A DNA stretch of 64,000 bases from Streptomyces sp. NBC_01288 (lineage in GTDB: Bacteria; Actinomycetota; Actinomycetes; Streptomycetales; Streptomycetaceae). The stretch lies in assembly GCF_035982055.1 (NCBI RefSeq), contig NZ_CP108427.1, forward strand, positions 5,517,001 to 5,581,000, given 5' to 3'. The first letter of the stretch is position 1, and the number at the start of each line of letters is the position of its first letter. Of the stretch, positions 52,808 to 58,614 are shown in pieces. Below the pieces are notes generated by a model. The model made no database searches, had not been told where the DNA came from, and saw nothing but the letters and a program-made list of their open reading frames with translations. The position numbers and the translations under genes were made by a program.

Positions 52808-53011
52808 TACTGTTTTCCCGTTTTAAATTCTGTGTAAGAGCGGGTTCAGTTCCGCAAAGTCCATAAGAATCTTCCACAGGGATTGCTCAGGAAGGTCTAA
52901 GCGAAAAAGTCTTTTCCTGCGTCAGAAGTCCAGTAGTGTTTTCCATGTCGAAAGCGAACAGCGCAAACGACAAGAAGACGCAAGAGAACGCAAGAGACGA
53001 AGGAGAGCACG
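52808..53011 (+). promoter_or_regulatory. AT-rich region upstream of the peptide array
   Basis: This 204-base stretch is much richer in A+T than its surroundings (for example GTTTTAAATTCTGTG and GCGAAAAAGTCTTTTCC). The promoter of the array must lie here; TAGTGT at 52932-52937 is one candidate -10 element, but no confident -35 is seen. An ATG at 52945 opens a frame that reads out of phase through the first peptide gene and is judged incidental. Confidence 0.5.
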
Positions 53012-53128
53012 ATGAGCTTCCACAAGATCGCCCCGGTGAAGAAGGCCCCCAAGCCCGCCCCGGCGCCCAAGAAGGCCCCGAAGAAGCACGCCCCGGCCCC
53101 GAAGCGCCGCCCGGTCGGCCACAAGTAG
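53012..53128 (+). CDS. Cationic Lys/Pro/Ala-rich peptide, array copy 1
   Basis: This 38-residue peptide begins MSFHKIAPVKKAPKPAPAPK and ends KRRPVGHK. It has ten Lys, two Arg, three His, nine Pro and no acidic residue. There is no signal peptide, membrane helix, Cys, Thr or lanthipeptide-like core. GAAGGAG lies six bases before the ATG, and every codon ends in G or C, so translation is strongly supported. I recognise no family. The composition resembles histone H1 or HU tails and Pro-rich cationic peptides. It is the first of five tandem paralogs. Confidence 0.85.
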   Translation: MSFHKIAPVKKAPKPAPAPKKAPKKHAPAPKRRPVGHK

Positions 53129-53186
53129 CCCGTCCGACCAGCCGCGATAAACCACGGATAAGAATTCCCAGGGAGGGAAATAAACC

Positions 53187-53303
53187 ATGAGCTTCAACAA
53201 GATTCACCCCATCAGGCAGACCCGCAAGCCCGCCCCGGCCCCCAAGAAGCCGGCGCCGAAGAAGCCCGCCCCGAAGCGTCGCCCGGTCGACCACAAGGGC
53301 TGA
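53187..53303 (+). CDS. Cationic Lys/Pro/Ala-rich peptide, array copy 2 (divergent)
   Basis: This 38-residue peptide begins MSFNKIHPIRQTRKPAPAPK and ends KRRPVDHKG. It is the most divergent member: His4 becomes Asn, the VKK start becomes IRQ, and it has a single Asp. GGGAGGG precedes the ATG by seven bases. It keeps the Lys-Pro-Ala core and basic end of the others. It lies 58 bases after copy 1. Function is unknown. Confidence 0.83.
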   Translation: MSFNKIHPIRQTRKPAPAPKKPAPKKPAPKRRPVDHKG

Positions 53304-53422
53304 CAGAGAATTTACAGACGTAATTCAGAAGTAGTTCAAAGGCAATTGCAGCAGATCGGTAGAGGAACTGTTGCAGAACCGCAGCAGAGCCGGCAGCAGC
53401 CGCGACGGAGAGGGACACAGAC

Positions 53423-53542
53423 ATGAGCTTCCACAAGATCGCCCCGGTGAAGAAGGCCCCCAAGCCCGCCCCGGCCCCGAAGAAGAAGCCCGCGAAGAAG
53501 CCGGCGGCGGCCCCGAAGCGCCGCCCCGTGGGCCACAAGTAA
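53423..53542 (+). CDS. Cationic Lys/Pro/Ala-rich peptide, array copy 3
   Basis: This 39-residue peptide shares its first 21 residues with copy 1 (MSFHKIAPVKKAPKPAPAPK). Its middle is KKPAKKPAAAPK, and it ends KRRPVGHK. A GGAGAGGG ribosome site precedes it. The 119-base spacer before it contains CAG-rich words and no frame. It is probably co-transcribed with its neighbours. Function is unknown. Confidence 0.85.
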   Translation: MSFHKIAPVKKAPKPAPAPKKKPAKKPAAAPKRRPVGHK

Positions 53543-53671
53543 GCCGCCGGCCCGGCCGTAGAAGACCCGCAGCACCCGCACCACTCAGAGCACCCGCAGC
53601 ACCACCCGCAGTACTCGCACCACTCCACAACTCGCCGCGGCTGAGCGGCACTTACCGGGAGGGACCCCACC

Positions 53672-53788
53672 ATGAGCTTCCACAAGATCGCCCCGGTCAA
53701 GAAGGCCCACAAGCCCGCTCCGGCGCCCAAGAAGGCCCCGAAGAAGCCGGCTCCGGCCCCGAAGCGTCGTCCGGTCGGCCACAAGTAA
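53672..53788 (+). CDS. Cationic Lys/Pro/Ala-rich peptide, array copy 4
   Basis: This 38-residue peptide is almost identical to copy 1, with Pro13 to His and a Pro in place of His26. It ends KRRPVGHK. The upstream spacer, ending CGGCACTTACCGGGAGGGAC, is nearly the same as that before copy 5, so gene and spacer were duplicated together. GGGAGGG is the ribosome site. Confidence 0.85.
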   Translation: MSFHKIAPVKKAHKPAPAPKKAPKKPAPAPKRRPVGHK

Positions 53789-53890
53789 GCCGCAGGGCAG
53801 GCCGTAGAAGACCCGCAGCACCCGCAGTACCACCCGCAGTACCCCACAACTCGCCGCACTACAGCGGCACTTACCGGGAGGGACCCCGCC

Positions 53891-54004
53891 ATGAGCTTCC
53901 ACAAGATCGTCCCCGTCAAGAAGAGCCACAAGCCCGCCCCGGCCCCCAAGAAGAAGGCGCCGAAGAAGCCCGCCCCGAAGCGCCCCGTCGGCCACAAGGG
54001 CTGA
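53891..54004 (+). CDS. Cationic Lys/Pro/Ala-rich peptide, array copy 5
   Basis: This 37-residue peptide begins MSFHKIVPVKKSHKPAPAPK and ends KRPVGHKG. One Arg is lost from the end motif and a Gly is added. It is the last copy, followed 13 bases later by a strong hairpin. The spacer before it holds imperfect repeats of ACCCGCAGT. Function is unknown. Confidence 0.85.
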   Translation: MSFHKIVPVKKSHKPAPAPKKKAPKKPAPKRPVGHKG

Positions 54005-54017
54005 TCCAGCACACCCT

Positions 54018-54067
54018 GAGGCGGGGCCACCGGTTAGCGAGCGAACTCGCTCCGGTGGCCCCGCCTC
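54018..54067 (+). terminator. Terminator after the peptide array
   Basis: GAGGCGGGGCCACCGG / CCGGTGGCCCCGCCTC forms a 16-base-pair stem. It is topped by an inner AGCGAG-CGAA-CTCGCT hairpin. It would stop or reduce transcription from the array into the ABC exporter gene at 54104. Confidence 0.88.
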
Positions 54068-54103
54068 GGCCATGACCAGCCCACGCTCTGAAGGGAGTTG
54101 ACC

Positions 54104-55963
54104 ATGAGGGAAGCCCGTGAGGCCTTCCGCCGTTTCTGGCCGCTGACCCGCGGTGACCGCAAGTGGCTCGCGGTGATCATCGCGTGTGTCGTGGTGTCGG
54201 CGCTCTCCGAGACCGCCGCGATCCTGCTGTTCGCGGACCTCACCGACAACGCCCTCAAGTCCGGTTCGCTGTCCGCCTTCTGGGGCCCGGCCGCGGCCTG
54301 GCTCGGTGTCGCCGCACTGGGCGCGCTCGTCGGCTACTTCGGCAACTCCCTCGCCACCTGGACCGCCGAACGCTTCGTCCTGCGCCTGCGCGCGAACGTC
54401 TTCCGGCACGTCCAGGACCTCCCGCCCCACTTCTTCCAGAAGCACCGCCAGGGCGACCTGGTCGAACGCCTCACCGGAGACGTCGAGGCCATCGAGCAGA
54501 TGGTCGTGTCCGGAGTCGTAGGCACGATCTCGGCGGCCTTCTCCGCGGTCTTCTACGCCTGCGCGGCCCTGTACCTCCGCTGGGACCTGGCCCTGGCCAC
54601 GTTCGTCCTCGCTCCCCTGTTCCTCATCGCCGCCCGCCGTTTCTCGGGCCGTATCAAGCAGGCCTCGACGGACGAGCGGGTCGCGGACGGCGCGATCACG
54701 TCCGTGGTGGCGGAGTCCCTCGGCAACGTGGTCCTCACCCAGGCGTACAACCGCCGCCGCGACGAGGAGAAGCGCCTCGACGTCGAAGCGCGCGCATGGA
54801 TGAAGGCGTCGGTGCGCGGCGCCCGCCTGAGCGAGATGTACGAGCAGTTCGTGGAGGTCGTAGAGACCCTCTGCGTCCTGTCGGTGATCGGCCTCGGCGT
54901 CTGGGAGATCTCCGCCGACCGCATGACCCTCGGCGCCCTCCTCGCCTTCGCGGCCTTCATCGGCTACCTGTACCCGCCCGTCCGCAACCTCGGCCAACTC
55001 GGCCTCACCCTCACCGCCGCCACGGCCGGCGCCGCCCGTATCAACGAGATCCTGGACGCCACCCCGTCCGTCGGCGACCCCAGCCAACCCGTCCCCGCCT
55101 GGCCCGTCCACGGCTGGGTCAGCTTCCACGGTGTGACCTTCGCCTACCCCGGCGCGACCCGGAACTCGGTCGACGAAGTCACCTTCAGGGCGGACCCGGG
55201 CGAGCTGGTGATCATCACCGGCGAGAGCGGGGCGGGCAAGTCCACGCTCTCCAAACTCCTCACCCGCTTCTACGACCCCTCGGCGGGCGTGATCTGCCTG
55301 GACGGCGTCCCCCTCCGCGACGTACCCCTCGAATTCCTGCGGGAGAACGTCGCGTTGCTCCCCCAGCAGACCCTCATCCTCAACGGCACGGTCCGCGAGA
55401 ACATCGAGTGCGGCCGCCCCGGCGCGACGGACGAGGAGATCGAACGGGCGGCGAGGTCGGCGGCGGCGCACGACTTCATCACCTCCCTCCCCGAGGGTTA
55501 CGACACCCAGATCGCCCCCGGCACGGCGGCCCTCTCCGGCGGTCAGCTCCAACGGATCGCGATCGCCCGGGCGATGCTCCGAGAGGCCCCGGTCCTGGTC
55601 CTGGACGAACCGACGGCCGGCCTCGACTCGGTGGCCGCCCGCCAGGTGATCCAGCCTCTACGCCGCCTGATGTCGGGCCGTACGACCATCATGATCACCC
55701 ACGACCTGAGCCTCGCCCCGGACGCGGACCGCATCCTGGTGGTGGAAGGCGGACGGTTGGTGGAGACGGGAACGCACGCGGAGTTGGTGGCAAGGGGCGG
55801 CGCGTACGCGCGACTTGCGGGTCCGCTCCCCGAAATGGCGATCACCGGAACGGGACGGCATCGTTCGCACCGCTCGCATCGTTCGGAGGACACGATGACC
55901 CTGCGCCAGGTCCCGCCGCAGGCACCGGACGAGACGATGATCCTGCGGCTTCCCCTCAAATAG
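54104..55963 (+). CDS. ABC exporter (fused membrane and ATPase domains)
   Basis: This 619-residue half-transporter has a six-helix exporter domain in residues 20-320. Its ATPase domain has Walker A GESGAGKST at 373-381, signature ALSGGQLQRIAIARAML and Walker B VLVLDEPTAGLD. The switch His lies in MITHDLSLAP. There is no C39 peptidase domain, so it would not cleave a leader. The tail has an unusual RHRSHRSHRS stretch and two TMxLR motifs. ATG 54104 has GAAGGGAG. It may export the peptides upstream, but substrate and link are inference. Confidence 0.9.
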   Translation: MREAREAFRRFWPLTRGDRKWLAVIIACVVVSALSETAAILLFADLTDNALKSGSLSAFWGPAAAWLGVAALGALVGYFGNSLATWTAERFVLRLRANVFRHVQDLPPHFFQKHRQGDLVERLTGDVEAIEQMVVSGVVGTISAAFSAVFYACAALYLRWDLALATFVLAPLFLIAARRFSGRIKQASTDERVADGAITSVVAESLGNVVLTQAYNRRRDEEKRLDVEARAWMKASVRGARLSEMYEQFVEVVETLCVLSVIGLGVWEISADRMTLGALLAFAAFIGYLYPPVRNLGQLGLTLTAATAGAARINEILDATPSVGDPSQPVPAWPVHGWVSFHGVTFAYPGATRNSVDEVTFRADPGELVIITGESGAGKSTLSKLLTRFYDPSAGVICLDGVPLRDVPLEFLRENVALLPQQTLILNGTVRENIECGRPGATDEEIERAARSAAAHDFITSLPEGYDTQIAPGTAALSGGQLQRIAIARAMLREAPVLVLDEPTAGLDSVAARQVIQPLRRLMSGRTTIMITHDLSLAPDADRILVVEGGRLVETGTHAELVARGGAYARLAGPLPEMAITGTGRHRSHRSHRSEDTMTLRQVPPQAPDETMILRLPLK

Positions 55964-55966
55964 GGA

Positions 55967-56725
55967 TCATGTAGAGGGAGTTGCACGGAGGCTGTACCCG
56001 AGCCCCCGCACGGTGTGGATGAGCCGCGGTTCGCCGCGGCTCTCCAGTTTCCGGCGCAGGTACATGACGTACACATCAAGGGTGTTGGACGCGGGCTCGA
56101 AGTCGAAGCCCCACACGTGCCGGTGGATCTGCGACCGGGTGAGCGCGGCACCCGGATGCCTCAACAGGTACTCCAGCAACAGGAATTCGGTCCGCGTGAG
56201 ATCGAGCGGCAGGCCGTCACGGGCGACGGTGCGGGTACGCAGGTCCATGACCAGATCCTGGAAGACGAGCCGTTCGAGCTCGGGCGGATGCTCGTCGGCG
56301 GCGTTCCGCTGGGCACCGCGCCGCAGCAACGCCCGTACACGCGCGAGGAGTTCCTCGACGGCGAACGGTTTCGAGAGGTAGTCGTCGGCACCGTTGTCGA
56401 GGGCGACGATCCGGTCGCCGACCGCGTCCCGCCCGGTGATCATCAGGATCGGCACGGTGGACCCGGAGGCACGGATACGCCGGGTGGCGGCGAGCCCGTC
56501 CAACTCTGGCATGGTGACGTCCATCAGCACGAGGTCCGGCGCGGAGGCATCATCCGGCACACCGAGGGACAGGCCGAGAGATACACCGAGAGATACGCCG
56601 AGCAGATCGAGCGCGGTACGGCCGTCTCCGGCGAGAACGGTCTCGTACCCCTCGAATCTGAGCAGCCGCCCAAGCCCTTCGCGTACGTCCACGTCGTCGT
56701 CGGCAAGCAGGATCTTCCGCGCCAT
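55967..56725 (-). CDS. OmpR-family response regulator with LGVS-repeat insert
   Basis: This 252-residue protein has a receiver domain with acidic pocket LLADDDVDVRE, phosphorylated Asp in LVLMDVTMPELDG, and the Thr/Lys switch (MITGRDA, YLSKPFAVEELL). A PhoB-type winged helix follows (LTRTEFLLLEYLL ... [13 protein letters not shown]). Between helix 2 and strand 3 sits a repetitive LGVSLGVSLGLSLGVPDD insert, absent from normal receivers. No kinase is adjacent; the nearest is the CssS-like kinase at 61146. It is convergent with the ABC exporter, with stops 3 bases apart. ATG 56725 is used. Confidence 0.9.
   Translation of the reverse strand: MARKILLADDDVDVREGLGRLLRFEGYETVLAGDGRTALDLLGVSLGVSLGLSLGVPDDASAPDLVLMDVTMPELDGLAATRRIRASGSTVPILMITGRDAVGDRIVALDNGADDYLSKPFAVEELLARVRALLRRGAQRNAADEHPPELERLVFQDLVMDLRTRTVARDGLPLDLTRTEFLLLEYLLRHPGAALTRSQIHRHVWGFDFEPASNTLDVYVMYLRRKLESRGEPRLIHTVRGLGYSLRATPST
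56558..56602. repeat. Short tandem repeat inside the response regulator
   Basis: Near-perfect 12-base units related to CACCGAGAGATA occur about four times and keep the reading frame. They encode the Leu-Gly-Val-Ser repeats in the receiver domain. Confidence 0.8.
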
Positions 56726-56769
56726 CTGAACACGGTGTGACGGGCGGCTGTGCTGGGGCTGGCAGGGGG

Positions 56770-57501
56770 TTATGCGTGGGCTAGGGCTCGGATGTAGCGC
56801 CGACGGAAGAGAGGGGCGAGGAGGGCGTAGGCGGCGAGGGGGGCGCAGAAGAGCAGGAGGAAGGGGTGGGGATCGCCGTCGGTGACGGCCTCCCACACCA
56901 CATACCCGATGGCGGCGAAGAGAACGAGCAGGGCCCCGGTGATCGCTCGCTCCCGGGCCTTGCGGTACGCGGCCCGCTCGCGGATGCGCACTTCGACCGC
57001 CGGGCGCCGCTCCCAGGTCATGCCCCGGTGCCGGGCGGCCGCGGTGTGCAGGCCGGCGACCTCGGCCCAGAGGTCCGGGAGCTGCCAGTCGTCGAGGTGG
57101 GGGAGGCGTGCCCTGCGGCCGTCGTTGTCGTAGAGGTAGGTCAACGACTTGACGTCGGCTCTGCGTTGGCCCGGATTGGTCTCTACGCGGAGATCGTAGA
57201 TGTCGTGCCAGGCCCACCTGCGCACGCGGAAGGCTCCGCGGGTGGAGACACCGTCGGTCCCTACGGTGGTGCGCCCCCGTCGCACGGTGAGAATCGCCCA
57301 GACACCCAGCAGCGCCATGAGCGCCACCGCGAGCAGCCTGTACCGGCCGGGGATGGTGTCGGGCCGCGCCATCTGAAGAGCGAAGTTCACTTGGACGATG
57401 CACAGGGCGGCGAACCTTCCCCGGGACATCTTTCTCCGCCTGCGGTACTCCCGCTCGACCCCACGTCCGTCGTCGCGGTCGTCCTCGTCGTCCCCGCCCA
57501 T
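56770..57501 (-). CDS. PH-domain-like membrane protein, paralog 1
   Basis: This 243-residue protein has an acidic N-terminus (MGGDDEDDRDDG), two membrane helices, and a PH-like module around residues 75-155. The module reads TTVGTDGVSTRGAFRVRRWA, then DIYDLRVE ... LTYLYDNDGRRARLPHLDDW. Two more helices follow near the end. The order membrane-PH-membrane is common for small actinobacterial PH proteins of unknown role. ATG 57501 has GGGGAGGG. It is followed, in the direction of transcription, by the response regulator gene. Confidence 0.75.
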   Translation of the reverse strand: MGGDDEDDRDDGRGVEREYRRRRKMSRGRFAALCIVQVNFALQMARPDTIPGRYRLLAVALMALLGVWAILTVRRGRTTVGTDGVSTRGAFRVRRWAWHDIYDLRVETNPGQRRADVKSLTYLYDNDGRRARLPHLDDWQLPDLWAEVAGLHTAAARHRGMTWERRPAVEVRIRERAAYRKARERAITGALLVLFAAIGYVVWEAVTDGDPHPFLLLFCAPLAAYALLAPLFRRRYIRALAHA

Positions 57502-57593
57502 CGACCCTCCCCAGAGCCTGTGTTGGGGGCGATCCTAAGGGCGGGAGCTGTGCCGGGCCGGGAGGGGGTGAGCCGGGGTTCGGTTCGCAGGGG

Positions 57594-58190
57594 CTACGCC
57601 AGGAACACGAACGCCGCGAACACGGCGATGAAGCCAGTGAGGCAGGCGAATTCCCAGGCTTTGCGGTGCCGTGCGCGCCGACGGATCAACGCTTCTGTCG
57701 CGGGCCTCGGCTCCCAGGTCGTGCCGTGGTGCAGGGCGGCCGTGGCGCGCAGGTCGGCGATCTCGGCGTGGAAGTCCGGGAGTTGCCAGTCGTCGACGTA
57801 AGGGAGGAGGAATCGGCGGCCCTGGACGTCGTAGAGATAGGTCAACCACTCGGATCCGTCCAGTTTCCCGGCGTGGTTGAGTTCGGGCCGGATGTCGTAG
57901 ACGGTGTGCCAGGTTCGCGTCACCGACCGCAGGGTTCCGCGCGCGGTGATTCCGTCGGTGCCCACGATCGTGCGTCCCCGCCATCGGAACAACAGCATCG
58001 CGGTGAGCGAACTCAGCAGGATCGTCACGATCGCTGTCCTGGACGGCACGCCGGCGACATCGGAGTCCGTCGTCAGCTGGAGGACACAGTTCGCGACGAT
58101 GACAGTCAGGGGGATGAGCCGCCGCCAGGACGACCGTCTTCGTCGGCCGTACTCCCGCTCGATGCCGCGCTCGTGCACGTCCTCGCCCAT
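57594..58190 (-). CDS. PH-domain-like membrane protein, paralog 2
   Basis: This 198-residue protein is a paralog of the product at 56770, with the same GIEREYGRRRRSSWRR start. The IVGTDGITARG ... YDIRPE and WLTYLYDVQGRRFLLPYVDDW blocks match. It has two helices early and one at the very end; the last helix of paralog 1 is missing. ATG 58190 follows GGGGGAG. It arose by tandem duplication. Function is unknown. Confidence 0.75.
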   Translation of the reverse strand: MGEDVHERGIEREYGRRRRSSWRRLIPLTVIVANCVLQLTTDSDVAGVPSRTAIVTILLSSLTAMLLFRWRGRTIVGTDGITARGTLRSVTRTWHTVYDIRPELNHAGKLDGSEWLTYLYDVQGRRFLLPYVDDWQLPDFHAEIADLRATAALHHGTTWEPRPATEALIRRRARHRKAWEFACLTGFIAVFAAFVFLA

Positions 58191-58302
58191 GACAACTCCC
58201 CCGTGTAGGACGGGTCGATGGTAGGCCGGGGAGCTGTGGGTGTCAGGAGGCGGACCGGGACCATGAAGGGCCCCGAGGTCAGTGGACGGGACCGGTCCGG
58301 GG

Positions 58303-58614
58303 TCACCGTTCGGGCTCCGGGATGCGTTCGCCGCGGCTGATGGCGATCCGGAGGGTGTCGCCGAGGGATTCGGACGCCCTGGTGAGTGCGAACCGTACGG
58401 CTCGTTCGCCGGCCTTCGGGTCGGCGAGTACGGCTTTGGCTCCGGCCAACACCTGTTCCCCGGATTCGAGTTGGGCCGCCTCGATGTCATCGGCGAGGAG
58501 GGAGAGCCGGCTGTCGTGGCTGTCGGCGCTGAGGTAACAGGGCTTGCCGTCGGGGGTGGTCCAGGGCAGCAACCGCAACTGCCGTTCGCCGTACGTGGTG
58601 TTGGGGATGGTCAT
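58303..58614 (-). CDS. Hypothetical protein next to Xre regulator
   Basis: This 103-residue protein begins MTIPNTTYGERQLRLLPWTT, with a helical, Ala/Glu-rich C-terminal part (LESGEQVLAGAKAVL). I recognise no domain, but similar proteins often sit divergent from Xre/DUF5753 genes in Streptomyces (recollection). The 238-base gap to the regulator (58615-58852) should hold both promoters. No other signal is clear there. Confidence 0.72.
   Translation of the reverse strand: MTIPNTTYGERQLRLLPWTTPDGKPCYLSADSHDSRLSLLADDIEAAQLESGEQVLAGAKAVLADPKAGERAVRFALTRASESLGDTLRIAISRGERIPEPER

Follow-up and report, generated by a model that had tools for sequence, protein, structure and literature searches.

Tandem genes for short polycationic peptides beside an ABC exporter gene in Streptomyces: a candidate leaderless peptide export module

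Five tandem genes for short polycationic peptides precede the gene of an ABC exporter in Streptomyces sp. NBC_01288, and we consider it fairly probable, on the basis of sequence comparison, that the peptides are leaderless, are exported by this dedicated pump and act in the manner of leaderless bacteriocins. A pairing of short polycationic peptides with a matching ABC exporter is apparently undescribed in actinobacteria; no description of it was found among the matches listed in the open-licence PMC literature. The initial annotation had proposed three roles for the peptides (binding of nucleic acids or polyphosphate, an exported antimicrobial, or a signal). The genomic surroundings appear to favour the exported antimicrobial, because a co-inherited exporter gene follows the peptide genes; no evidence points to a signal. 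Given this pairing with an ABC export pump, the peptides are also more likely to be secreted than to be chromosome-binding proteins. The features that bear on this reading are purifying selection on the peptide frames, their adjacency to and co-inheritance with the exporter, the recurrence of other polycations beside the same exporter clade, an N-terminal signature, clade-specific acidic residues of the exporter, and a hairpin. The whole analysed stretch, 64,000 nucleotides from a genome of 10.56 Mb in a single contig, is referred to as the window.

Peptide genes in the window and across the genus

The peptide genes lie on the plus strand at positions 53012–53128 (copy 1, 38 aa), 53187–53303 (copy 2, 38 aa), 53423–53542 (copy 3, 39 aa), 53672–53788 (copy 4, 38 aa) and 53891–54004 (copy 5, 37 aa). 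As had been noted initially, they are five separate frames of 37–39 codons between 53012 and 54004; all start with ATG, and a purine-rich ribosome site is located 5' of each. Four copies start with MSFHKI and copy 2 with MSFNKI, the ends are of the RPVGHK or RPVDHK type (RPVDHKG in copy 2), and a KPAPAPKK core is common to all five. The start-to-start spacings of 175, 236, 249 and 219 bases agree with the suggestion that gene and spacer were duplicated as a unit. The remark that the peptides lack Cys, and all but one of them acidic residues, applies to the window, where the only acidic residue is in copy 2; it does not extend to the relatives, since Cys is present in 12 and an acidic residue in 33 of 70 distinct relatives. 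No family had been recognised, and copies 1, 2 and 5 indeed fit no Pfam or NCBIfam family; these three copies have no Pfam match at E 1, and thus no HU or H1 domain.

The profile of the five copies that had been proposed was run on related genomes. It matches the window copies 1 to 5 with E-values of 1.6e-19, 1.2e-18, 3.0e-19, 4.0e-20 and 2.0e-17, respectively, and yields matches in 41 of 295 genomes of the genus at E ≤ 0.01. The weakest of the 41 (genome G173) was discarded as a chance match, as no such peptide is encoded there. In a family-level sample of 150 genomes from 17 genera, the profile matched 9 genomes in 3 genera. The 70 distinct relatives are 36–50 aa long and have a net charge of +9 to +15. 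Their overall composition is K 25%, P 19% and A 15%, Trp or Tyr occurs in one peptide of 70, and no hydrophobic stretch or apparent signal peptide is seen in their composition and sequence. Positions M1, S2, F3, K5, P8 and V9 are near-invariant and R-P-(V/I) is a recurrent motif close to the C-terminus, so both ends are conserved, and the cationic middle is variable.

Among the 45 named loci, i.e. those fetched with the peptide profile, 16 contain one copy, 22 two, 4 three, one four and two five copies; loci at contig ends may be missing copies, and a further copy is possible in L172. Rows L010, L013, L016 and L037 were dropped from the locus set as short versions of L049, L052, L051 and L050, respectively. 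Streptomyces sp. NRRL F-525 and S. prunicolor, with five copies each, are the closest named relatives in this region; the first 320 aa of their exporters are 98.75% and 98.1% identical to that of the window. Copies 1 and 4 of S. prunicolor (L137, 4001–4117 and 4634–4750) are identical in amino acids, unlike copies 1 and 4 of the window, a possible sign of gene conversion among the tandem copies.

Selection on the frames was estimated by the Nei–Gojobori method, summed over position-matched copies. Against close relatives, five pairwise comparisons gave pN/pS of 0.26, 0.39, 0.30, 0.38 and 0.21. Among the window's own copies pN/pS is 0.33, with one of the ten copy pairs (2 vs 5) reaching 1.57. 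Codon usage varies synonymously at the conserved P8 (CCG 44, CCC 40, CCT 1; n = 85) and V9 (GTC 59, GTG 21). Judged by these substitution patterns, the five frames are real genes under purifying selection, and the conservation, within 0.21–0.39 against the close relatives, is not of the DNA only. A plasmid or phage origin was rejected, as tblastn with copy 4 gave no match in the collection of either kind.

Transcription signals, exporter and neighbouring genes

An alignment of 35 of 40 upstream regions (five of the 40, from L015, L027, L041, L045 and L050, were left out) delineates a conserved region at 52825–52959 on the plus strand, conservation spanning more than 100 nt. Within it lies a near-invariant core, TAGTGTTTTCCATGTCGAAAGCGAAC (52934–52959, plus strand), which, with at most three mismatches, occurs a single time in each of 34 genomes out of 295; these are all peptide-positive. 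We infer that this core comprises the −10 element and the transcript start. Further elements are seen at 52825–52933, namely a TAAATTCTGTGTGA-like one, an inverted CTGARAAT...TCTCAG and AGGTCTAAGC; they are likely binding sites of a putative regulator. A conserved upstream coding frame starting with ATGTCGAAAGCG was considered and rejected: over 37 loci, its phase with respect to peptide 1 is distributed 12/13/12, and it was therefore treated as a DNA or RNA motif.

Between the last peptide gene and the exporter, a strong G+C-rich hairpin with no T run is located at 54016–54069 (plus strand). The hairpin was found in 44 of the 44 loci folded. In an alignment of 16 of these loci, three with at least the 3' end trimmed, compensatory changes are observed at 6 of 15 pairs. 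It is probably a partial terminator or an mRNA-stabilising element. Rfam mir-3155 matches on both strands of the hairpin, with 28.6 and 25.9 bits where the gathering score is 70, were dismissed as a palindrome artefact.

The gene at 54104–55963 (plus strand) encodes an MsbA/ABCB-type ABC exporter of 619 aa, with the ABC_membrane and ABC_tran domains in one chain (PF00664, 142.5 bits; PF00005, 105.8 bits). Among proteins of solved structure, it is closest in sequence to ABCB proteins (e.g. P-glycoprotein) and to MsbA. It belongs to the same superfamily as these, and is set apart by a score under the curated MsbA cut-off (423.9 vs 602 bits) and by the clade-specific acidic residues described below. 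A C39 peptidase domain is absent from its Pfam scan. The C-terminal tail (55820–55960) contains a repeated (D/E)T(M/L)xLR motif (EDTMTLRQ and DETMILRLPLK in the window). A T(M/L)x(L/F)R tail is present in 26 of 43 exporters of the window type, referred to as family A, and in some relatives (L116, L123 and L121) a similar motif was seen by eye on the N-terminal side.

An exporter with at least 76% identity is encoded on the same strand directly 3' of the last peptide in 42 of the 45 named loci. The remaining three are L141 and L155, whose exporters have internal deletions, and L150, where a weak match (37.5%) spans 112 residues; in all, an exporter or what is left of one adjoins the peptides in 45 of 45. 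In the set of 295 genomes, the peptide is present in 41, an exporter at ≥ 74% in 43, and both in 38. The peptide-positive genomes without an exporter at that level are G255 (broken exporter), G169 (weak remnant) and G173, which has no peptide. Exporters without a profile match fall into two groups: G055, G064 and G165 have a divergent peptide missed by the profile, and G150 and G252 a peptide remnant, the exporter match in G252 being only 127 aa long. As the genomes are related, Fisher values for this co-inheritance and for the class-wide test below overstate significance. The exporter is broken and the peptides are intact in the decaying modules L141, L155 and L132, which may reflect recent decay or a function without the exporter. 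In L116 the peptide is reduced to a remnant, and L117 has a peptide remnant and a partial exporter match. Membership in a defence system was rejected, two peptides having no match and the exporter only general ATPase-type ones (best, mad3 at 1e-31).

A 5'-nucleotidase gene upstream of the peptides is present in the fetched flank of 34 of 45 named loci, some contigs being cut, and in one of them is on the other strand. The 5'-nucleotidase of the window is presumably the counterpart of SCO4152 of S. coelicolor, called PhoP-regulated in a review (PMC7866108). The response regulator gene at 55970–56728 has homologues in 26 of 45 named loci. Behind it, on the minus strand at 56773–58490, two similar membrane proteins are encoded, 45% identical over 190 aa, and homologues of either are found in 15 of 45 loci (both counts are flank-limited). 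The first of them (56773–57501, minus strand) has a weak bPH_6 match (24.1 bits vs a cut-off of 22). A PH-like gene adjoins the exporter in L149, L135 and L172. A PH-domain protein as a general partner was rejected: such genes occur near family A, but none was seen in five wider stretches inspected by eye from ORF starts.

Exporter relatives and peptide types in the class

Relatives of the exporter at further places are 61–88% identical over the part compared. A short cationic frame lies upstream in 16 of 19 loci of the first batch (remnants in L116 and L117, none in L131) and in 24 of 25 of the second, where the exception, L215, has less than 250 nt of contig before the exporter. The peptide bodies are wholly different between families, e.g. 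Pro/Lys (MSFKKLAPLPPKPK...) vs Arg/Gly/Asp/Tyr (L125, L207 and L223). The window's own genome contains a second module of the Pro/Lys type about 230 kb away (L120, G000:C1:5801400-5803800), in which the peptide MGLNKLAPLPKPKKQQLPPPPPKPRKKHQPKPLPKPLPGQDS (1699–1827) is encoded upstream of an exporter 72% identical to that of the window; the gene before it (L327, 2203–3330) appears to encode a FemX-type lipid II peptidyltransferase.

A class-wide profile was built from ten exporters, seven of them picked from earlier matches, and applied to 394 genomes; it matched 27 genomes and 11 of 137 genera at 32 places, 30 of them with loci. Upstream frames were evaluated by a strict criterion combining a length of 25–85 aa, a ribosome site, charge, third-position G+C and low complexity. 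By this criterion a polycationic frame is located upstream in 26 of the 30 module loci vs 2 of 57 control ABC_membrane domains, taken from three genomes, for which the 900 nt preceding the domain were searched. With the low-complexity condition omitted, the numbers are 29 of 30 and 7 of 57. Of the 30 module loci, 18 were newly inspected, and 16 of these pass the strict criterion. Among the strict misses, the peptide of L326 (MSLFSHLAPAKRHSKGKK...) is concealed in a longer GTG frame, that of L304 (MSHHHGRRHRRPKKKPF...) has a charge of only +3 and is on the strand opposite to the exporter, L312 has a Trp/His/Arg-rich cationic frame 166 nt downstream of the exporter's stop, and in L321 no peptide frame was found. 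Exporter loci without an intact peptide are L131, L116, L117 and L321. Further peptide types are poly-Arg (L310 and L313), Arg/Trp (L306 and L307) and Pro/Lys (L314–L320). The peptides upstream of the exporter in L306 and L307 are rich in Arg, Trp and Cys and end in GCRRRRRRRWCGGCRRRRWWGWGW and GCRRRRRWRRCCYVPVRWWGCC; to our eye, they recall Arg/Trp-rich antimicrobial peptides.

The N-termini were compared in 24 diverse peptides hand-picked from the inspected exporter loci. Positions 2–10 hold 69 hydrophobic residues vs 33.8 (sd 4.7) in shuffled sequences, and a hydrophobic-x-Pro motif is present in 18 of 24 peptides vs 5.2 in shuffles (maximum 10). On the exporter side, an acidic residue occupies each of the positions E131, D161 and E254 in all 43 family-A exporters and in all 7 relatives compared (three with 66–72% and four with 42–46% identity), and in none of 24 controls, which are the non-module part of 30 of the 63 loci from the three control genomes; for E36 the counts are 43 of 43, 7 of 7 and 0 of 23. 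MsbA is also acidic at the E36 position. When the exporter is aligned with MsbA, E36 lies in transmembrane helix 1 and E254 in helix 5 of the MsbA numbering. Family A is further marked by E244, E247, E251 and E268 (43, 38, 43 and 43 of 43; controls 0, 0, 1 and 0 of 24). In the class-wide loci the pattern holds in part, with E254 in 28 of 29 readable loci, E131 in 29 of 30, E36 in 24 of 30 and D161 in 23 of 30. The AlphaFold model of the exporter is weak (mean pLDDT 50.5, 15 sequences) and cannot place the four acidic residues.

Proposed module and alternative explanations

Adjacency, co-inheritance, the ratio of one pump per one to five peptides, the constant N-terminus with changing bodies, and the acidic positions favour the view that the peptides are cargo. 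A single conserved promoter would drive the one to five tandem genes for leaderless mini-peptides, and the strong hairpin would limit read-through, providing much peptide and less pump as a form of dose control. The exporter encoded downstream would carry the peptides out of the cell. It would recognise a short N-terminus with hydrophobic residues, MSFHKIAPV in the window and MxxxK(I/L/V)xP or similar in relatives, and acidic residues in its transmembrane domain would accommodate the polycationic tail. Once out of the cell, they might act on anionic targets, the leading guess being the envelopes of competitors, or else wall polymers of the producer itself.

The same gene order can be read in terms of leader peptides acting in cis. 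Ribosome stalling on the Lys/Pro/Arg-rich frames would then set read-through of the hairpin and switch on an ABC efflux pump; stretches of poly-Pro and poly-basic residues are known to slow ribosomes. A small frame followed by a hairpin and an ABC exporter is also the layout reported for BmrB of Bacillus subtilis, where leader-peptide attenuation controls BmrCD (PMC4191407). In family A the frame lies in cis upstream of the exporter, but this is not so in two distant relatives, L312 and L304, the cationic frame standing after the exporter's stop in the former and on the opposite strand in the latter. Nor was an antiterminator signal found: over 44 loci, the last peptide gene pairs with the 5' arm of the hairpin no better than codon shuffles do, as assessed by duplex energies only (mean z +0.34, one locus below −2), which speaks against an attenuator. 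The presence of between one and five full copies, every one with a separate ribosome site, and the conservation of both peptide ends while synonymous codons vary also argue against leader peptides, and we consider this explanation improbable. A role of the peptides as small partners or regulators of the exporter, and not as its cargo, seems to us similarly doubtful. Co-inheritance and the acidic transporter positions fit binding as well as transport, and 16 of the 45 named loci have a single copy; however, tandem arrays with as many as five copies for one exporter, and peptide bodies that are fully divergent between families, fit cargo better than a fixed interface.

It is unlikely, too, that the peptides are intracellular polycations binding DNA, RNA or polyphosphate in the way of H1/HU tails, with the exporter a mere neighbour. 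Their charge and the lack of a hydrophobic core are compatible with such a function, as is the 5'-nucleotidase next door, given that its S. coelicolor counterpart is called PhoP-regulated (PMC7866108). For a role with nucleic acids or polyphosphate as such, charge is the sole argument. Copies 1, 2 and 5 have no HU/H1 domain, the peptides are co-inherited with the exporter, unrelated polycations recur beside the same exporter clade in other loci and genera, and the nucleotidase adjoins the peptides less consistently than the exporter or its remains (34 vs 45 of 45 named loci).

Export as cargo invites comparison with leaderless bacteriocins. Aureocin A70 of Staphylococcus aureus (AurABCD with AurT) is a leaderless four-peptide bacteriocin secreted by an ABC transporter (PMC10941976). 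Like it, the window type combines several related, strongly cationic, unmodified small peptides with an ABC transporter, export being a prediction here; the aureocin peptides are reported to be highly hydrophobic and to kill (PMC10941976), whereas those of the window are hydrophilic Lys/Pro/Ala chains. Aureocin A53-like leaderless bacteriocins, arcanocin and arachnicin, are described in Actinomycetota including Streptomyces, as peptides without a leader whose clusters contain ABC transport genes and PH-domain proteins (PMC11580447). By that description they resemble our case in their host phylum, in a leaderless form that is putative here, and in the ABC transport genes. The passages on these clusters in PMC11580447 contain no Lys/Pro or poly-Arg peptide, and the PH-domain-like gene of the window is located beyond the response regulator on the other strand. 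In general, leaderless class II bacteriocins are small cationic peptides, often in tandem, with an ABC transporter in the cluster. The window family has such peptides and, in 45 of 45 named loci, an exporter or its remains with predicted export. By its Lys/Pro/Ala composition it lacks the hydrophobic, membrane-active (amphipathic) character of this class, and it is on this point that membership fails.

The evidence seems to us evenly balanced for a broader proposal, an actinobacterial system of unmodified polycationic mini-peptides of ribosomal origin, sharing only an N-terminal export signal of about ten residues and each served by a dedicated ABC exporter with extra acidic transmembrane residues. 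With the same reserve, its Lys/Pro/Ala, Pro/Lys, Arg/Gly/Tyr, poly-Arg and Arg/Trp peptides could be regarded as a gene-encoded polycation arsenal or an envelope-coating kit. The main non-helical kinds of antimicrobial peptides are Pro-rich, Gly/Arg-rich and Arg/Trp-rich. If the proposal is true, a module of two genes, detected in 11 of the 137 genera sampled from the class, exports polycations that resemble these kinds. Eleven peptides scanned against Pfam and NCBIfam are above no family cut-off, and family-based mining would therefore miss them. The module would then be a new source of peptides in a genus mined for antibiotics, and a test case of the way in which an ABC exporter reads a short N-terminus and lets a long polycation through.
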